In this document: positions 4,956-46,459 of the stretch, one piece after another
Layout of the letters: every line of letters starts with the position of its first letter
Numbering within the stretch: the stretch's first letter is position 1
Origin: an uncultured Cytophagales bacterium
GTDB lineage: Bacteria; Bacteroidota; Bacteroidia; Cytophagales; 172606-1
DNA: 64,000 nucleotides
Assembly (NCBI GenBank): GCA_902805615.1
Contig: CADCTQ010000001.1
Span: 26,598 to 90,597, forward strand
Reading direction: 5' to 3'
Notes under the pieces: generated by a model
Databases searched by the model: none
What the model was told of the DNA's origin: nothing
Seen by the model: only the letters and a program-made list of their open reading frames with translations
Translations under genes and position numbers: made by a program

Positions 4956-7900
4956 TCAGAATCCTACCAGCACTCTTTTGGTGAACACGCCCGTTGACGT
5001 AGTCACGCGGAGCAGGTACACTTGCTTTTCCCTTACCTGGCTCAGCAGATGCAGCTCTCCGTTCACTAAAGCCCGCTCGGGGAAGCCTTCCATCTTCTGC
5101 CCGCTCAGCGAATACAGTTCAGCCGAAGCCCACTTCGAGGAAGCATCCGGGAAACGAACGTAAATGTGCTGGCCAATCGCAAAGATCCGAACCGTCTCTT
5201 TCGCTGCGGATGCGGGTTCTGCCCGCGTAGCGGGAATCTGGCCCGGGGCGCCTGCCACCGGGGTGGCAGGCGTTGAAGCCGGGCGGGTAAAGTGCAGCAC
5301 GAAACGGGCCGGATCGCTTCCCGCCTCCAGGTTTAAGCCGATGCTTGCCTGCTTGCGCAAGTCGTAATACGTACCCGTCTTTTTGTCTTCCAGCAGGATG
5401 CCGAACGTTTCGTCTACTCTTTCCAGCGCGTTGACCCTGAAGGTATACGCTCCCGCTTTGCTTGCCTGTACCCCCAAGGCGAGGGTTCTCTCCCGGGCCA
5501 GCAGGGGCAGGGCCTGGATGGCGTAATCGCCGTCCGTATTGCGGGAGCAGACCGAAAGGTCGGCATTGCCTTTCAGCTTGAGGGCATCGTACCAGCGGTC
5601 CTGTCCTTCGGTGGCATCGGCCAGGAAAGCAATGAGGGTTTCGTTGTACTTACCCGCTCCGCTCAGCGAGAGTTTTAGCCGCTGGGTCTGGTCGGCCTGC
5701 TGCCGGAAGAATTTGGTATTTGCCGTACCCGTGCGCATGGCATTGGTAAAGGTGATGCTGCCCACCGCATTGGCTTCTACGAAAAATCCCTGGTGAGAGG
5801 CAATCTCATCGTCGGCCAGCGTGCCGGTATTGGGGCCGGATACGGTTCCCGCGGCGGTTTTTACCGCGTAGTCCGAATTGGCGTAGCCACTGCCGCCGGT
5901 GTTGTCGTCGTCCCAGAAGTAGACGGCCCCGTTGATGGAAGGATTGGCACGGATGAGGGCACTGTAACTGATGGGTCCCGGGTAAGGGTTGCCCACCAGG
6001 TTGAAGCCTCTTTCTCCCGCTACATGGGCCGCCGTGTAGGAGAGCGGCAGGGCAATGGTGCCGTTGTTGGCCGTACCCGTGAAGGAGGGACTGCCCGCCC
6101 CGTAGGCAAAATACCCTTTCCCAGGTTGCAACCCTCCCGTAGCGGCCGCAATCCAGCGCTGGTGATTGGCGTAGGGACGCGCCTCATCGTAGCGGTACAC
6201 GGTGCTGCCCAGTACGCTTGCGTTCACGCCGGCTACCGGAGCCGACCAGCCGTTGTAGGCCCCGCCCGTTTTGCCACTGCGCTGAGTAGTGATGTTGCCC
6301 ACTACACTGCCCCCGCCGTTGACCGTACCAATGCCGTGCAGGAGAATGGCGCCTGATGCCAGCGTGAGGTGATCATTGGTGTTAAGCGTGGTACCGGAAA
6401 GGACCTGCACTGTGCCGCCCACCAGCAGGGCTCCCGTCAGGCTGGCCGTACCGGCTTTGGCAAACTGCACGCTGCCCGTTCCGGTAATGCTGCCGCCGTT
6501 ATTAGCCAGGTCACCCCAGATCACCAGGCTTTGCCCGGCGGGTATTTCTAACCGGGCGCCGTTCCGGATGGTCAGGTTCCGCACGCGGGCCGTGCCGGCA
6601 ATGGTGGTCACCCCGCTGGCGATCACGGCATCCGAGTTGTTGCCCGGCGTGCTCTTGTAGCTCCAGTTACCGGTAGTAGTCCAGGCCCCGATCCCGTTCC
6701 AGGTATTGGTCCCGGTGGCAGTCACGACCAGATGCTGCGCCACGTCATCTGCCGCCTGGTACGTCTCATCGCCGGGCTGGGAAGCGGTAATGGTGGTTGT
6801 ACCCACGCCCACCAGGGTGACGGTGCTACCCGAAACAGTAGCCACCGCCGGGTTGGAACTCGTATAGCTTACGCTTAGTCCGGAAGAAGCCGTAGCCGTC
6901 AGCGTGAAAGGCGAATCACCAATCGTCCGGGCGGGCAGGGTGTTGAAGGTGATGAGTTGGGAGCGTTTGGCAATGCTGAGCGAATAGGTAACCGAACCGG
7001 AACAAGCGCCGTCGGTGGCCGACACGGTTACCGTGGCCGGGGAAGCAGTAGCTACGGCAGGCGTACCGGAGATAACCCCGGTGGGGCTGATGACCAGGCC
7101 GGCCGGCAAACCGGTGGCCGAGTAGACATAGCCGGCAGGAGCACCGCTGACCGCCTGGAAATAGGCCCGCCCTACTGTGCCGCCGGTCAGGGCAGAGGGG
7201 CTAAAGGCAAGCGCAGGGCAAGGAGAAAAAACCTGGACCCGGTAATTGTTTGCATCGGCTACATACACATCGCCGGCACCATTTACGGCTACGCCAGCAG
7301 GATACTGGAACTCTCCGTCTCCTGCTCCTCCAGCGCCGAACATAGTCAGCAACTGCCCCGAGGCGCTGAATTTCTGGACCCGGTTATTGGATTGGTCGGT
7401 TACGTAAACGTTGCCGGCCGTATCGACCGCCAGGCCGTAAGGATATTGAAATTGTCCGTCTCCTGCGCCAAAAGAGCCGAACTTGAGGAGGAATTGCCCC
7501 GACGCGTCGAACTTCTGGACCCGGTTGTTGTTTGCGTCGGCTACGTACACATGGCCGGCGCCATCGACGGCTACACCAGTAGGATAATAAAACTGGCCAT
7601 CCCTTGATCCAACAGTGCCGAACTTGAGGAGAAACTGCCCCGACGCGTCGAACTTCTGGACCCGGTTGTTGGAGAAGTCGGCTACGTACACATTGCCTGA
7701 GCCATCGACGGCTACTCCCTGGGGATCCAGAAACTGTCCGTCTCCGCCGCCTCCAGCGCCGAACTTAGCCAGCAACTGCCCGGCGGCGTTGAACTTCTGG
7801 ATGCGGTTATTGTTTTTATCAACTACGTACACATTGCCGGCGGCGTCAACCGCCAGGCCGTCAGGAGACCGAAATTGTCCATCCCCGGTTCCAAAAGAAC

Positions 7901-8996
7901 CGAACTTGAGGAGGAATTGCCCGGCGGCGTTGAACTTCTGCACCCGGTGATTGTTCTGATCGGCTACGTACACATTGCCGGCGGCATCAACTGCCAGGCC
8001 GTCAGGAGACCGAAATTGTCCATCTCCTGTTCCGGAAGAGCCGAACTTGAGGAGAAACTGGCCCGAGGCGTCGAACTTCTGAATCCGGTGATTGTTTTGA
8101 TCGGCTACGTACACATTGCCTGAGCCATCGAGGGCTACGCCGGCAGGATTTACAAACTGTCCGTCCCCTGATCCGAGAGCGCCGAACTTGGTCAGAAACT
8201 GGCCCGACGCGTTGAACTTCTGGACCCGGTTGTTGGAGTAGTCGGCCACGTACACATTGCCTAAGTCATCAACGGTTACGCCGATAGGATTTATAAACTT
8301 TCCATCCGTTGTTCCCCGGGAGCCGAACTTGGCGAGAAACTGCCCCGAAGCGTTGAACTTCTGGATCCGGTCATTGGATAAGTCGGCTACGTACACATTG
8401 CCTGAGCCATCGAGGGCTACGCCGGCAGGATACTGAAATTGTCCATCCTCTGTTCCGGAAGAGCCGAACTTGAGGAGAAACTGGCCCGACGCGTTGAACT
8501 TCTGAATCCGGTGATTGTTTTGATCGGCTACGTACACATTGCCTAAGCCATCAACGGCTACGCTGGCAGGATTTATAAACTGTCCGTCCCCTGATCCGAG
8601 AGCGCCGAACTTAGCCAGAAACTGCCCGGAAGCGTTGAACTTCTGGATCCGGTAATTGCTGCGATCGGTTACGTACACATTGCCCGTTCCATCTGCGAAC
8701 ACGGCAACCGGACCCCGAAACTGTCCGTCCCCTGATCCAAGAGCGCCGAACTTGAGGAGAAACTGCCCCGAGGCGTCGAACTTCTGGACCCGGTTGTTGG
8801 AGAAGTCGGCTACGTACACATTGCCTGAGCCATCGACGGCTACTTCCGAAGGATTATGGAACTGAACCAAGCCAAATGCTTCAGAACCGATCTGACCCTG
8901 GTACTGGTACTGGTGCTGGGCCCGCAGGGAAAGGGAGGAAAAAAGGCCCATCAGCAGGACCAGCCAATGGAGAAAGCGTAGACGTGTTTGCTGCAT
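4956..8996 (-). CDS. Secreted NHL-repeat beta-propeller protein with Ig-like and T9SS domains
   Basis: A 1346-residue protein. A signal peptide (about 1-26, ending in LSLRAQ) is followed by twelve tandem 47-residue NHL units (about 47-591; consensus GVAVDGSGNVYVADxNNxRVQKF), enough for two six-bladed propellers. Then comes a putative Ig/cadherin-like segment (SPSALTGGTVG...GLPAGLVISPTGVISGTP, ~597-685), a second bacterial Ig-like segment (~690-770), a beta-rich region starting GTNTWNGIGAWTTTGNW, and a C-terminal T9SS-like sorting domain ending TKRVLVGF. The role is probably adhesion or binding at the cell surface; no catalytic residues are seen. It is transcribed alone on the minus strand. 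Confidence 0.85.
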   Translation of the reverse strand: MQQTRLRFLHWLVLLMGLFSSLSLRAQHQYQYQGQIGSEAFGLVQFHNPSEVAVDGSGNVYVADFSNNRVQKFDASGQFLLKFGALGSGDGQFRGPVAVFADGTGNVYVTDRSNYRIQKFNASGQFLAKFGALGSGDGQFINPASVAVDGLGNVYVADQNNHRIQKFNASGQFLLKFGSSGTEDGQFQYPAGVALDGSGNVYVADLSNDRIQKFNASGQFLAKFGSRGTTDGKFINPIGVTVDDLGNVYVADYSNNRVQKFNASGQFLTKFGALGSGDGQFVNPAGVALDGSGNVYVADQNNHRIQKFDASGQFLLKFGSSGTGDGQFRSPDGLAVDAAGNVYVADQNNHRVQKFNAAGQFLLKFGSFGTGDGQFRSPDGLAVDAAGNVYVVDKNNNRIQKFNAAGQLLAKFGAGGGGDGQFLDPQGVAVDGSGNVYVADFSNNRVQKFDASGQFLLKFGTVGSRDGQFYYPTGVAVDGAGHVYVADANNNRVQKFDASGQFLLKFGSFGAGDGQFQYPYGLAVDTAGNVYVTDQSNNRVQKFSASGQLLTMFGAGGAGDGEFQYPAGVAVNGAGDVYVADANNYRVQVFSPCPALAFSPSALTGGTVGRAYFQAVSGAPAGYVYSATGLPAGLVISPTGVISGTPAVATASPATVTVSATDGACSGSVTYSLSIAKRSQLITFNTLPARTIGDSPFTLTATASSGLSVSYTSSNPAVATVSGSTVTLVGVGTTTITASQPGDETYQAADDVAQHLVVTATGTNTWNGIGAWTTTGNWSYKSTPGNNSDAVIASGVTTIAGTARVRNLTIRNGARLEIPAGQSLVIWGDLANNGGSITGTGSVQFAKAGTASLTGALLVGGTVQVLSGTTLNTNDHLTLASGAILLHGIGTVNGGGSVVGNITTQRSGKTGGAYNGWSAPVAGVNASVLGSTVYRYDEARPYANHQRWIAAATGGLQPGKGYFAYGAGSPSFTGTANNGTIALPLSYTAAHVAGERGFNLVGNPYPGPISYSALIRANPSINGAVYFWDDDNTGGSGYANSDYAVKTAAGTVSGPNTGTLADDEIASHQGFFVEANAVGSITFTNAMRTGTANTKFFRQQADQTQRLKLSLSGAGKYNETLIAFLADATEGQDRWYDALKLKGNADLSVCSRNTDGDYAIQALPLLARERTLALGVQASKAGAYTFRVNALERVDETFGILLEDKKTGTYYDLRKQASIGLNLEAGSDPARFVLHFTRPASTPATPVAGAPGQIPATRAEPASAAKETVRIFAIGQHIYVRFPDASSKWASAELYSLSGQKMEGFPERALVNGELHLLSQVREKQVYLLRVTTSTGVFTKRVLVGF
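7224..8858 (-). repeat. Twelve tandem 141-bp NHL repeats
   Basis: The DNA encoding the propeller units is repeated every 141 bp with very high similarity between units, for example the repeatedly seen GGCTACGTACACATTGCC on the plus strand. The array is likely to expand or contract by recombination and is hard to assemble with short reads. Confidence 0.9.
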
Positions 8997-15343: not shown

Positions 15344-15492
15344 GGTAGTGGTAAAATCGGAACTGGTCACCTAACATGACACCTTTGGGCAAAACTGGTA
15401 GACAAGCTATGATTGCAGTGATCAGGACCTGCCATCCGGCTTTTAATCGTCCGCTACAATCCTGCCGTATCAGTTCGGTTTTTACCACTACC
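15344..15492. mobile_element. MITE-like element, family 2, copy 1
   Basis: A 149-bp non-coding element with about 22-bp terminal inverted repeats (GGTAGTGGTAAAATCGGAAC at the left; the reverse complement of the right end is GGTAGTGGTAAAAACCGAAC). The same sequence occurs in inverse orientation at 29711-29859 with about 8 differences in 149 bp. A minus-strand open frame running through it here is stopped early in the other copy, so it is not conserved coding sequence. I see no clear target duplication. Confidence 0.75.
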
Positions 15493-15654
15493 CGGGGGCC
15501 ATTCTGATGCCAGCGGGCACCTTGCTTCATTTTTTGTCGCAGTCAACTGGATAACAGGCGCTTGTGATTGTGCCGGCCCGGCGGAGGCTGGCCTACCCCT
15601 CCGTGCGGCAGTAGTTTTCCCCGAACCTCCGTTCCGGCGGAGGCCATTGCCGGC

Positions 15655-28349: not shown

Positions 28350-28713
28350 GTATGTGCTTAGCGTATATGGGTGGAGATAGGATGGTTTGTAATGGGATGG
28401 GGATTGGTTTATGATCTGTAAGTGGAGTTTGTTCTTTTTGGCATTGCCCCAAAAAGAACCAAAAAGGTCTAGGCCCAATGATGCTTCCCCCCGCCAGTCA
28501 ACCCGCCCCTCGCCATTGGGCCGGGCCCACGCGCCGCGAAACCATCAGTGCCGAAACAACGATAGTAACGCGTAAGGAAAGAACGATACCAGCGTGTAAG
28601 GAAGGGGATCTGCTCACTGACGGCGCCTGCTCACTGCATATCCACACACTGCCTGGCTACTCACTGCCTGGCTACGCACTGCGTATCCACCAGGCAGGGC
28701 GCGAAGCACATAC
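28350..28713 (+). mobile_element. MITE family 1, copy A
   Basis: A 364-bp non-autonomous element. Ends are GTATGTGCTTAGCG and, inverted, GTATGTGCTTCGCG. It is flanked by a perfect 8-bp target duplication CAAAACCC (28342-28349 and 28714-28721). The core at about 28431-28565 carries two hairpins: TTCTTTTTGG/CCAAAAAGAA and GGCCCAATG/CATTGGGCC. It inserted in the middle of the palindrome CCTTTCGGGTTTT-c-AAAACCCGAAAGG, probably the shared terminator between convergent genes. Short repeated units (CTGCCTGGCTACTCA) lie near its right end. Confidence 0.9.
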
Positions 28714-29352: not shown

Positions 29353-29710
29353 GGTATTTTGGTTACAGTTCAACGCTAGATTTTCTTCAAAAAAGTGCAA
29401 CAGCAGTAATGCAGTCTCATACCCAACCCATTGAAGCATTTACAGCCAGGGGCACCCTGTGTAGTGCTCTCGACCATCGTGTACCTTTCAGAATTCCGTG
29501 CGTACATTTTTGCGGTTACTCTATCCATGACCGATTCAATTTAAGCCAGTAATTGGTTCTGCTTCTTCTTAAGTTCCGCTTCTTCTTAAGGTATACACGC
29601 AAGAGTGCCCCCTTCCGGATCAGATCACTGCTTTATTTTTAAGGAAAGGGAATAAAACGCGATTATCGAAAACTGACCAGTAGTCTGTATCCTTAGTTAT
29701 TGAAAGGGAG

Positions 29711-29859
29711 GGTAGTGGTAAAAACCGAACTGATACAGCAGGATTGTAGCGGACGATAAAAAACCGGATGGTAGGTCCCGATAACTGCAATCATAGCTCG
29801 TTTACCAGTTTTGCCCAAAGGTGTCATGTTAGGTGACCAGTTCCGATTTTACCACTACC
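29711..29859. mobile_element. MITE-like element, family 2, copy 2
   Basis: The second 149-bp copy, in the opposite orientation to 15344-15492. It has the same terminal inverted repeats (GGTAGTGGTAAAA...) and about 95 percent identity. It lies 31 bp beyond the stop codon of the sugar dehydrogenase gene. Confidence 0.75.
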
Positions 29860-35927: not shown

Positions 35928-36340
35928 GTATGTGATTAGCGTATGAGCGTATTGGAGGCAGTTAGGGTGAGTGATGGGTCGGTTGTGATGGGTGGTAATG
36001 TGAGGGGTTGGGTGGTTACAGGATGGTTTGTAATGGGTTGGTGAATGGTTTATGATCTGTAAGTGGGGTTTGTTCTTTTTGGCATTGCCCCAAAAAGAAC
36101 CAAAAAGGTCTAGGCCCAATGATGCTTCCCCCCGCCAGTCAACCCGCCCCTCGCCATTGGGCCGGGCCTGCCCGCCGCGATCCCACCGGTGCCGAAACAA
36201 CGATACCACCGCGTAAGGGCGTATGGAAGGGGGCCGCCCATCGCAACGCCACAAGAACGATACGAACGCGTAATGAACGGTGCCCGCTCACTGCCTGGCT
36301 GCTCACCGCGTATTCACAAGGCAGGGCGCTAATCAAGCAC
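35928..36340 (+). mobile_element. MITE family 1, copy B
   Basis: A 413-bp element. Left end GTATGTGATTAGCG; right end, inverted, GTGCTTGATTAGCG. The perfect 8-bp target duplication TTACCGTT lies at 35920-35927 and 36341-36348. Rejoining the flanks gives GCCAACG-tttac-CGTTGGC, a hairpin, so this copy also sits in a palindrome. Same orientation and nearly identical core as copy A. It lies between the TPR lipoprotein gene (3' side) and the arabinofuranosidase start. Confidence 0.9.
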
Positions 36341-39268: not shown

Positions 39269-39294
39269 TCCATGCCAGTCCTGGAGAGCAAAAG

Positions 39295-39376
39295 TGCGCC
39301 CGGGGGGATTCGAACCCCCACGCCCAAGGGCGACAGCGTTTAAGTCTGTCCTGTCTACCAGTTCCACCACAGGCGC
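39295..39376 (-). tRNA. tRNA-Leu (anticodon UAA)
   Basis: An 82-nt class II tRNA. The acceptor stem GCGCCTG/CGGGCGC, long variable arm (CGCCCTTGGGCG), T-arm GGGGGTTCGAATCCCCC, discriminator A, and anticodon loop CTTAAAC are visible. CCA is not encoded. Confidence 0.93.
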
Positions 39377-39381
39377 AAAAG

Positions 39382-39468
39382 TGTCCACGGAAGGAGTCGA
39401 ACCTTCACTTTCCCCTCGCGGAGAAGCCGTGTTTGAGACGGCTGCGTCTGCCATTCCGCCACGTGGAC
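39382..39468 (-). tRNA. tRNA-Leu (anticodon CAA)
   Basis: An 87-nt class II tRNA. Acceptor GTCCACG/CGTGGAC, anticodon stem-loop GCCGT-CTCAAAC-ACGGC, long variable arm, T-loop TTCGACT, discriminator A. Confidence 0.95.
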
Positions 39469-39480
39469 TGTTGATAAGGG

Positions 39481-39554
39481 TGCCCCCGGTGCGATTCGAA
39501 CGCACACCCGCTGGTTTCTAAGACCAGTGCCTCTGCCAGTTGGGCTACGGGGGC
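39481..39554 (-). tRNA. tRNA with anticodon UAG, class I fold
   Basis: A 74-nt cloverleaf: acceptor GCCCCCG/CGGGGGC, anticodon stem CTGGT/ACCAG with loop CTTAGAA (anticodon UAG, reads CUA), five-nt variable region CGGGT, T-arm GTGCG-TTCGAAT-CGCAC, discriminator A. The anticodon says leucine, but bacterial tRNA-Leu normally has a long variable arm, as in the two neighbours. Confidence 0.85.
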
Positions 39555-39566
39555 AAATACATAAAG

Positions 39567-39637
39567 GATGCGCTGAGCAGGCGTCGCACCTGCAAGACTG
39601 CGCTTCCCAGACGCTGGCTGTCTGCCGGTTGCATCAT
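39567..39637 (-). tRNA. Degenerate tRNA-like sequence (GGG anticodon loop)
   Basis: It has a T-arm-like GCAGG-TGCGACG-CCTGC and an anticodon-like GCGT-CTGGGAA-GCGC (would be Pro GGG), but the acceptor stem does not pair and the T-loop lacks TTC. It is probably a decayed or strongly divergent tRNA between functional ones. Confidence 0.35.
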
Positions 39638-39644
39638 CGGGACA

Positions 39645-39680
39645 TAAAAAAAGCCTCTGCTGGTCTAGCGGAGGCTTTTT
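39645..39680. terminator. Bidirectional terminator within tRNA cluster
   Basis: AAAAAAGCCTC...GAGGCTTTTT: a hairpin with A-run and T-run on either side. It separates the tRNA-Cys transcript from the downstream tRNAs or serves both strands. Confidence 0.8.
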
Positions 39681-39796
39681 CCCTTTCGAGCAGGCAAAAG
39701 CTATCCGCCACCTTCTTGCAGGCAGTGTAACAGGCCGGGCAGTAAGACGGCTTTCATCGGGATGGACATGGGTCTATACAGTTTCGCGTTTGTTTG

Positions 39797-39868
39797 AGTA
39801 GGCAGGTGGAGTCGAACCACCGGACGCCCTTTTGCAGAGGGCTACCTTCACCGCTTGGTTATGCCTAC
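39797..39868 (-). tRNA. tRNA-Cys (anticodon GCA)
   Basis: 72 nt. Acceptor GTAGGCA/TGCCTAC with discriminator U, which is characteristic of tRNA-Cys; anticodon stem CCCT/AGGG with loop CTGCAAA; T-arm GGTGG-TTCGACT-CCACC. Confidence 0.93.
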
Positions 39869-39981: not shown

Positions 39982-40314
39982 ATGTCTTTGGATTGCTTTT
40001 CAGTTCAATGCCGACAATACCGTTTTGCCCCAACCCGAGTCGGTTCCAGCAAGCAGAGGCATAACAGTTGATTGTTTTTCACGGCGCAAAATTAATACGA
40101 GAACCGATACGAGTCAAGTACTATTTTTGCATATTTTTCATCCGGTCCGTCGTCATCTGCTCCGCGTAAAGACATTGGTCTGCTGTTGCACAAAAACGGC
40201 CCGACGGGTGGCCGGGCCGTTTCGCAAAGAACAGTGGTGGCTGCCACCTTGCGTTTGACCCGGCTCTTTGTCAGCAGCTTATTCCCTGCAACACGGTTGA
40301 TGATGCCCCCCTGA
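39982..40314. other. Intergenic beside the tRNA cluster
   Basis: Partly AT-rich, with no family-like frame. It probably holds the promoter for the minus-strand tRNA-Cys unit. Confidence 0.45.
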
Positions 40315-41028
40315 TCAGGAAAGACAAAGGGGCAGCGCGTTGCCCTTCATACCCCCGCCGGGTACGCCGACCCACTCGCCGTGCACGTCAACCACCTCGA
40401 CAAGGTACTCAAGGAAACTACCGGCAAAACCACCGTATGTGATTAGCGTCCTCCCTTGTGGATACGCAGTGTACATAAATACGCAGTGAGTAGCTACGCA
40501 GCGGGCGGGCACCGTTCCTTACGCGCTGGTATCGTTCCTGCGGCGTTGAGATGGGCACGGTTCGTTACGCGCTGGTAACGTTGTATCGGCACCGATGGTG
40601 TCGCGGCGCGTGGGCCCGGCCCAATGGCGAGGGGCGGGTTGCTTGGCGGGGGGAAGCATCATTGGGCCTAGACTTTTTTGGTTCTTTTTGGGGCAATGCC
40701 AAAAAGAACAAACGCCACTTACGCTTCATCAACCATTCCCCATCCCATCACAACCCACCCATCACAACCAACCCCTCACTAACCCTAACCCCCTCACTAA
40801 TCCCATCCGCCTCTAACCCCCACCTGCGCCAATCACATACAAACCACCTCGGGCCTGATTGCCGAACGCATTGCGCAAGAAGCACGCGCCTTGCTCAAAC
40901 ACACGGATTGGACGATCAGCGAAATTGCCTGGCGCCTGGGCTTCGATGAACTCCCCCACTTCATCAACTTCTGTAAAAAACACGTACGGCTCACGCCCAG
41001 GACGTACCGGCGCAACGACGCGGGTTGA
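40315..41028 (+). pseudogene. AraC-family regulator gene, truncated and interrupted by MITE copy C
   Basis: The left part (40315-40434) reads ...GQRVALHTPAGYADPLAVHV and NHLDKVLKETTGKTT. After the element and one copy of its target duplication, the right part continues in the same frame: SGLIAERIAQEARALLKHTD, WTISEIAWRLGFDELPHFIN, FCKKHVRLTPRTYR, TGA at 41026-41028. Together these are the two helix-turn-helix motifs of an AraC DNA-binding domain. The N-terminal effector domain is missing (an in-frame TGA lies at 40312), so the gene was already truncated or lost its 5' part separately. Confidence 0.85.
40435..40840 (-). mobile_element. MITE family 1, copy C
   Basis: A 406-bp element with ends GTATGTGATTAGCG and, inverted, GTATGTGATTGGCG. 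The 8-bp target duplication AAACCACC lies at 40427-40434 and 40841-40848. Its core is in the opposite orientation to copies A and B. It carries three to four imperfect copies of ACGCGCTGGTATCGTT-like units near the left end. Confidence 0.92.
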
Positions 41029-45104: not shown

Positions 45105-46010
45105 TCAGACGGCCGGTGCGTTCAGCCGGGTGCTATCCTTCCGGAAATCGGTAAAGCGCACGCCGGCCGTATTCTTGAACAACTTGCTGAAGTGGGCAAT
45201 GTCCTCGAAACCGAGGGAATAAGCAACTTCCTTCATGTTGGCACCCGAATACAACGCTTTGCGTTTGGCCTCCAGCACGATGCGTTGCCGGATCAGGTGG
45301 CCGGCCGGGTAGCCGAACGCCCCCTTGACGGCTTCGTTGAGGTAGCCCGGCGACACGGACAACTGCCGGGCGTACTCGGCCACCCGCTTCTTTTCCCGGA
45401 AGTGCTTTTCCACCAGGGCAACGAATTGCTGCACCAGCACGGGCTGCCGTCCCGGGCCGGCAACGGCCCCGGCCGGCTCCAGGTGACGCCGGAGGTGAAT
45501 GAGGAGGATCTTGACGTACCGCCGGAGCATCTCGCTGCGGAACGGGAAAAAGTTGTTGTACTCCATGAGCATCTTGCCGGCAATGTCCCCGATCTCGCCG
45601 GCCAGTTCTTCGCTGATGCCCGTGACGGGGCATTGCCGGAACTGGTTGACCAGGCCGGCGTACGCGCCCGGCCCAAACCCGGTTTCCTCTTCGCCCAGAA
45701 ACGATTCGGTAAACGAAATGACGTACCCTTCCGCCTGGGCGGCCGTCTGCCACTGCCGGACCTGCCCGGGGGCCACGCAGCACAACGTATTTTCCCGGAC
45801 GGGGTGCCGGGTCAGGTCCACGAGGAGATGCCCCCCACCCTTCCGGACCCAGGTGATTTCAAACGCCTCGGTCCGGCCGGGTCCGGGCGGCCGTTCCCCG
45901 GCGGGTTGCGCTTTGCCCGCCAGCGGGCGGATCTGGAAGGAGACGGACGGAAGATCCCGTCCCGCGGGCGGTGTATTGGGGTGACCGATCATACGGCTGG
46001 ATATAAGCAT
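45105..46010 (-). CDS. AraC-family transcriptional regulator
   Basis: About 301 residues. An N-terminal cupin-like effector region (EAFEITWVRKGGGHLLVDLT) is followed by a C-terminal AraC domain: FREKKRVAEYARQLSVSPGY and LNEAVKGAFGYPAGHLIRQR, then SLGFEDIAHFSKLFKNTAGV as the second HTH. Start choice is uncertain (46022, 46010 or 45992 all in frame); the extension to 46112 is unlikely. It is on the same strand and directly upstream of the PPOX-like gene. MITE copy D lies about 120 bp upstream. Confidence 0.88.
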   Translation of the reverse strand: MLISSRMIGHPNTPPAGRDLPSVSFQIRPLAGKAQPAGERPPGPGRTEAFEITWVRKGGGHLLVDLTRHPVRENTLCCVAPGQVRQWQTAAQAEGYVISFTESFLGEEETGFGPGAYAGLVNQFRQCPVTGISEELAGEIGDIAGKMLMEYNNFFPFRSEMLRRYVKILLIHLRRHLEPAGAVAGPGRQPVLVQQFVALVEKHFREKKRVAEYARQLSVSPGYLNEAVKGAFGYPAGHLIRQRIVLEAKRKALYSGANMKEVAYSLGFEDIAHFSKLFKNTAGVRFTDFRKDSTRLNAPAV

Positions 46011-46129: not shown

Positions 46130-46459
46130 GTACGTGATTAGGGCCCTGCCTAGTGGATACGCAGTGAGTAGCCAGGCAGTAAGCAGTCCCCCTTAGGCGC
46201 TGGTATCGTTACGCGCTGGTATCGTTGTTTCGGCACCGGTGGTATCGCGGTGCGTGGGCCCGGCCCAATGGCGAGGGGCGGGTTGCCTGGCGGGGGGAAG
46301 CATCATTGGGCCTAGACCTTTTTGGTTCTTTTTGGGGCAATGCCAAAAAGAACAAACTCCACTTCCCGCAGCATCAACCAATCCCCATCCCCTCACAACC
46401 CACCCATCACAACCAACCCCTCACTCACCCCGTCCGCCCCAAATACGCTCATCACATAC
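46130..46459 (-). mobile_element. MITE family 1, copy D
   Basis: A 330-bp element, the shortest copy. Left end GTACGTGATTAG; right end, inverted, GTATGTGATGAGCG. The 8-bp target duplication GCTTTCGG lies at 46122-46129 and 46460-46467. Core oriented as in copy C. It lies between the AraC regulator and a region of gene remnants. Confidence 0.9.

Follow-up and report, generated by a model that had tools for sequence, protein, structure and literature searches.

The locus lies in a window of 64,000 nucleotides, by which we mean the whole stretch of DNA that was analysed (C1:26598-90597), and it holds the last part of an AraC-family gene interrupted by a non-coding element of 406 bp. The element, copy C, occupies positions 40435-40840 on the plus strand. 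To its left lies the 5' part of an AraC-family HTH domain (GQRVALHTPAGYADPLAVHVNHLDKVLKETTGKTT, 40330-40434, plus strand, homologous to loci L082-L099), with an in-frame TGA stop upstream of it (40312-40314, plus strand), and to its right lies the 3' part of the same domain together with the stop codon of the gene (SGLIAERIAQEARALL...RRNDAG and stop, 40849-41028, plus strand). A cluster of three tRNA-Leu genes and one tRNA-Cys gene (39294-39868) is located directly upstream of the AraC remnant, and a second, separate AraC-like gene is found on the minus strand at about 45135-45800.

Copy C and the interrupted AraC locus

Copy C was delimited by its TIRs, by a target duplication (TSD) and by comparison with a family of copies. 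The TIRs, GTATGTGATTAGCG on the left (40435-40448) and CGCCAATCACATAC on the right (40827-40840), are both given as read on the plus strand; they are 14 bp long and differ by one mismatch between the two ends. The sequence AAACCACC flanks the element on both sides (40427-40434 and 40841-40848, plus strand) with a perfect match, and this duplication is exactly 8 bp long because the ninth base (position -9) differs between the two sides. The window reads ...GGCAAAACCACC followed by GTATGTGATTAGCG at the left edge, where the element begins at 40435, and CGCCAATCACATAC followed by AAACCACCTCGGGC at the right edge, where it ends at 40840. These boundaries agree to the base with those of the initial annotation.

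In codons, the left junction is GGC AAA ACC ACC and then GTATGTGATTAGCG, and the right junction is CGCCAATCACATAC, AAACCACC and then TCG GGC CTG. Removal of the element and one copy of the duplication, 414 bp in all, restores the frame exactly, as had been claimed, so that GKTT is followed by SGLIAERIAQEARALLKHTDW... in a single frame of 94 amino acids. The joined sequence matches Pfam HTH_18 with 68 bits (E 8.9e-19) over 79 of 80 positions, and the C-terminal double-HTH domain of the AraC family is therefore present once the flanks are joined. The joined protein was used as a query in 59 related genomes, and in all 17 aligned homologues, from other genomes of the order, the GKTT/SGLIAERI junction contains no inserted or missing residue. 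These uninterrupted homologues, the check that the initial annotation had proposed for its insertion event, are mostly about 300 amino acids long with identities of about 42-67% (best 67%, in genome G004); they are family-level relatives and not the same locus of a sister strain, and on sequence comparison they prove the junction and not the date of the insertion.

That copy C is a MITE, also proposed earlier, is supported by its size, its TIRs, its target duplication, its copy number and the lack of a transposase domain, while the part of that name that implies an autonomous parent found no counterpart in our searches (see below). Open reading frames of 65, 73 and 132 amino acids overlap the element, and none of them has a Pfam match above the cut-off. 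Folded as one RNA, the whole of copy C is no more stable than its shuffles (z -0.99).

The description of the host as an AraC-regulator gene split by the element holds for the HTH domain and fails for the gene as a whole. The homologues carry about 200 more residues ahead of the HTH domain, and similarity to them ends at about residue 190 of about 304 (window 40240). Upstream of 40330 the homology is weak and interrupted by a stop, residues 1-189 of the homologues were not found at the locus in the window, and no complete AraC reading frame with an N-terminal domain was found. The intact part amounts to roughly the last 95 codons. Judged from these alignments, the host of copy C is a 5'-truncated AraC remnant, and so the insertion did not necessarily put a functional regulator out of action.

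An alternative that concerns only the order of events is that copy C entered an AraC regulator that was still complete and working and thereby inactivated it, with the loss of the 5' two-thirds and the upstream stop following as later decay. On either side of copy C the reading frame of the 95 C-terminal codons is uninterrupted and still matches HTH_18 well, so decay in that part has been slight, as this order would allow. Against it stand the stop-broken upstream region and the missing N-terminal residues; furthermore, the insertion appears rather young because its duplication is perfect, and a perfect duplication beside a long-lost N-terminus fits truncation first. We consider insertion into an intact gene the less likely order; the gene may have been truncated before copy C arrived.

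A family of elements with common ends

Three further elements of the same type as copy C are present in the window: copy A (28350-28713, minus strand, TSD CAAAACCC), copy B (35928-36340, minus strand, TSD TTACCGTT) and copy D (46130-46459, plus strand, TSD GCTTTCGG). Copies A, B, C and D have their ends and a structured core in common and lie within four different perfect 8-bp duplications.

The genome (G000; 8.77 Mb in 694 contigs, with an estimated contamination of 6.3%) is fragmented, and many contigs of the assembly end in the repeat. Genome-wide, 252 sites match the 13-bp TIR with at most one mismatch, versus 2 for a reversed pattern used as a control. Pairing of TIRs on a subset of genome stretches gave 45 convergent pairs, and the 8-bp duplication is perfect in 18 and has one mismatch in 8 of these (26/45 together). 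Random re-pairing of the flanks gave at most one mismatch in 0.49% of cases, and the binomial probability of 26/45 is about 2e-48. The length of the duplication is constant, with 18 perfect cases at 8 bp and none at 6, 7, 9, 10 or 11 bp, and no pair matches over 9 bp or more. The other 19 of the 45 pairs lack a good duplication, which requires later rearrangement or decay.

The 18 copies with a perfect duplication are 301-588 bp long and, like copy C, stay below the 600 bp usual for MITEs; at least three unrelated interiors lie behind the common TIR and TSD. The first is the structured-core type, as in copy C; the second contains CTGGCGCGAAGC.../TTCCGCCAGAGGCGGAA hairpins and includes a near-palindrome of 588 bp; the third contains GGGGGTAGTC...GACTACCCCC hairpins. 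These unrelated interiors with a common TIR constitute a MITE superfamily, and one set of TIRs mobilises several unrelated hairpin-rich interiors. Copy C provides the clean case that fixes the ends of this high-copy Bacteroidota family to the base.

The exact TIR occurs in 3 of 391 genomes of the order, with one further match outside the genus. In a genome of the same genus (G001), an element of 174 bp (L102 1341-1514) has the same TIR, the TSD AGGCGTCC and a TCATTGCGAGG-type interior. Its TCATTGCGAGGA..GAAGCAATCTG interior resembles widespread CGTC-tagged repeats. The sequence GTAAGTGATTAGTG was considered as a TIR variant in the same genome and rejected, as it belongs to a 14-bp minisatellite and not to element ends; the minisatellite occurs at many places of G001, for example L203 2199-2240, L208 and L210.

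The motif TCAGTG/CACTGA lies inside 5 of the 26 target duplications (expected at about 0.15% each) and also at several unpaired ends (L012, L064, L170, L171, L075 and others). The elements seem to have an insertion hotspot, perhaps the palindrome-like CCGTCAGTGTCTCACTGACGG found inside L071.

No autonomous element combining these TIRs with a transposase gene emerged from searches for DDE_Tnp_1, IS66, IS1595 and IS256 or from reading the unpaired TIR sites. DDE_Tnp_1 matches occur at 9 loci and an IS66 match at 1 locus of G000, none of them flanked by convergent TIRs; no IS1595 match was obtained in G000 or G001 and no IS256 match in G000. L061 (1,522 bp), the one long unit between TIRs in which a transposase was found, was rejected as the parent, since it consists of a MITE into which an IS630-type element has inserted. 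Such nesting occurs at CTAG inside core-type MITEs both for this IS630-type element (DDE_3 transposase, L061 250-1771) and for a short relative with the same GTGGTCAGG ends (L159, about 836-928). The parent may have been lost, may belong to another family or may lie in unassembled repeats. IS66 insertion sequences make 8-bp target duplications and have ends that start with GTA. The elements described here share both features, whereas their end sequence departs from the 5'-GTAA rule and the single IS66 gene of the genome lacks a flanking TIR pair.

With high confidence, we interpret copy C as a non-autonomous DNA transposon, a MITE with TIRs of about 14 bp, that inserted in the part of an AraC-family gene or remnant encoding the DNA-binding domain. 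Its anatomy suggests that a transposase acting in trans would recognise the ends of about 14 bp and make staggered cuts 8 bp apart in the target, and that repair of the gaps would generate the AAACCACC duplication. The same transposase would have spread well over 100 such elements, with several unrelated interiors, through the genome. Any interior would be tolerated, and hairpin-rich interiors would have been picked up as cargo, among them the core, which would be an older, independently widespread structured repeat carried by the MITE.

A covarying structured core

The insertion of copy C is itself ordinary, and it is the structured core that raises interest. In copy C the core spans 107 nt (40605-40711, plus strand) and scores 122.1 bits with covariance model R1, copy C being among the sequences from which the model was built; the other window copies carry it at 28429-28535 (A), 36070-36176 (B) and 46249-46355 (D). 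It consists of stem A, with 5' arm GGCCCAATG (40618-40626, plus strand) and 3' arm CATTGGGCC (40660-40668, plus strand), both defined by covariation, and of hairpin B, GTTCTTTTTGG(GGCAATG)CCAAAAAGAAC (40681-40709, plus strand). Hairpin B is preceded by TAGAC or TTGAC and a run of T.

We oriented 17 core sequences and aligned them by sequence alone (alignment A1). The arms of stem A form very different pairs, such as GGCCCAATG/CATTGGGCC, GTCCATCCA/TGGATGGAC, GACGCAGCA/TGCTGCGTC and GTCAGAAAG/CTTTCTGAC, with 16 distinct arms in the 17 sequences. Among the 153 cells of the stem, 141 are Watson-Crick pairs, 4 are G-U pairs and 8 are unpaired; the resulting 94.8% pairing is somewhat favoured, as the 17 sequences were picked partly for a recognisable stem upstream of hairpin B, a choice that does not favour the variety of complementary arms. 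The covariation score of stem A is 0.907, versus 0.203 in shuffles and no more than 0.254 with slid partners, and RNAalifold recovers the same stem unprompted. Thus the arms have been rewritten from genome to genome with complementarity kept, nearly always by Watson-Crick pairs, which points to strong selection on the folding of RNA or single-stranded DNA.

Additionally, in many sequences the loop of hairpin B has a complement in the linker, and the two covary (CTTGACC/GGTCAAG, CTTGATC/GATCAAG, TCTTGGC/GCCAAGA, TTGCCC/GGGCAA, TTGTCC/GGACAA). The mean longest complement between linker and loop is 4.92, versus 3.88 in 500 shuffles, none of which reaches 4.92, with the qualification that this shuffle leaves the relatedness of the sequences in. 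In copy C the pairing extends over 5 bp only and in another register. This covariation is suggestive of an H-type pseudoknot.

No Rfam family matched above its gathering score in the window (tRNAs apart) or in 13 loci of other genomes, and no description of the core was found in Rfam or in the literature searched. On balance, we lean towards the view that the core is an undescribed structured element found across the Bacteroidota, with a covarying stem A of 9-11 bp around a conserved GC-rich loop, a short linker and a hairpin B whose loop would form an H-type pseudoknot with the linker. It would be a dispersed intergenic repeat in many genomes that transposons bounded by TIRs have taken up and multiplied in this genus.

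Distribution of the core and comparison with known elements

By BLAST, 28 of 391 genomes from the order contain a match to a 161-bp segment of copy D, often through hairpin B alone, and the TIR is absent there. Covariance model R1 matches 16 of 59 relatives, with at least 66 copies in this genome, 42 in G003, 33 in G004 and 49 in G005, and with 0 matches in 19 AraC loci used as a background control. A 38-base form of the linker plus hairpin B is found unchanged in records named as Algoriphagus, Parabacteroides, Flavobacteriales and Balneolaceae, and the core is directly testable in cultured genera that carry it, such as Algoriphagus. The window probably belongs to the Cytophagales, since the genomes of its order that were analysed contain the sequence type of Algoriphagus. 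It was not found in phage and plasmid collections, and a collection scan with the core sequence of the window itself gave no match.

In other Bacteroidota the core occurs without the MITE ends (L115-L143, L284-L323). In 40 loci without TIRs, it lies mostly between open reading frames, and where both neighbours were callable the reading frame 5' of the core shares its strand in 23 of 32 loci (two-sided p 0.02). The core frequently sits after genes, which would fit a function where transcription ends or at the 3' ends of mRNAs; selection on folded single-stranded DNA would also fit, because G-U pairs are scarce.

Several genomes contain arrays of the core on the same strand at a spacing of 300-1500 bp (L141 712-2862, L352 463-4162, L130 and L134). 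A reading of these four arrays as integron cassettes was rejected, as the DNA between the core copies contains either a duplicated GNAT gene or no consistent set of genes; the L352 unit includes the duplicated GNAT-like gene. Local duplication is the likelier origin of the arrays.

The occurrence of the core without TIRs raises the alternative that the core is the real mobile unit, a REP-like sequence moved by a Y1 (RAYT/IS200-like) transposase, and that the outer TIR region is incidental. Its dispersal and repetition in genomes without the TIR would agree with this, as would stem A arms that vary freely yet keep their complementarity and contain few G-U pairs. In L141, a RAYT-like fragment (YIHENP) is situated between copies of the core, and Bacteroidetes RAYT genes of subclass 2.6 are reported with flanking atypical secondary structures that are copied elsewhere in the genome (PMC6006769). 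However, the core lies within about 1.5 kb of 2 of the 30 top-scoring Y1 loci and of 0 of 30 further Y1/RAYT loci (mostly of the YIHxNP type), and G003 and G005, with their many core copies, have no Y1_Tnp match. Furthermore, in this genome each of the 37 flank-complete core copies is accompanied within 330 bp by one or both TIRs (both in 28 copies), and the duplications lie at the TIRs and not at the core. On these 60 Y1 loci, a RAYT or Y1 transposase as mover of the core was not supported, and we regard this explanation as very improbable. The preferred reading remains that a TIR-bounded MITE captured the core rather than the reverse.

The notion that the insertion is a coincidence of assembly or alignment, which the fragmented assembly and the many contigs ending in the repeat might encourage, can practically be set aside, as copy C lies in the interior of a long contig with unique sequence on either side, its own duplication and a junction that homologues cross without a gap.

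Dispersed non-coding elements of a few hundred bp are known in Porphyromonas gingivalis as BrickBuilt and MITE239/464 (PMC4596501). The elements described here are similar in host phylum (Bacteroidota), size, non-coding nature and dispersal, and also in having similar TIRs over unrelated interiors, internal tandem repeats and no transposase remnant (PMC4596501). In contrast, the ends here consist of the TIR GTATGTGATTAGCG with 8-bp duplications, whereas those of BrickBuilt_4 are described with a GAAA tetranucleotide (PMC4596501). The copy number is also much higher here than for BrickBuilt and MITE239/464, and one type has a conserved two-hairpin core. MITECca01 of Cardinium (about 240 bp) is likewise a TIR-bounded Bacteroidota element without a transposase and with many copies, but its parent insertion sequence is known (ISCca4, IS982 family), whereas none was found here (PMC9769881). 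The core itself resembles REP elements of RAYT (TnpA_REP) systems, including Bacteroidetes subclass 2.6 (PMC6006769), and CGTC-tagged repeats (PMC3733652) in being a hairpin repeat that is dispersed, lies mostly between genes and has covarying stems. It differs from REPs, which are 20-40 bp long, in its length of about 107 nt, its two hairpins and possible pseudoknot, and in showing no RAYT association in the loci tested.

Two other repeats were observed in the window. Positions 7233-8942 hold 11 tandem copies at a spacing of 141 bp with 63-78% identity to a reference copy, and positions 15344-15493 and 29710-29859 form a 150-bp inverted repeat pair, 95% complementary, that lies outside this MITE family.
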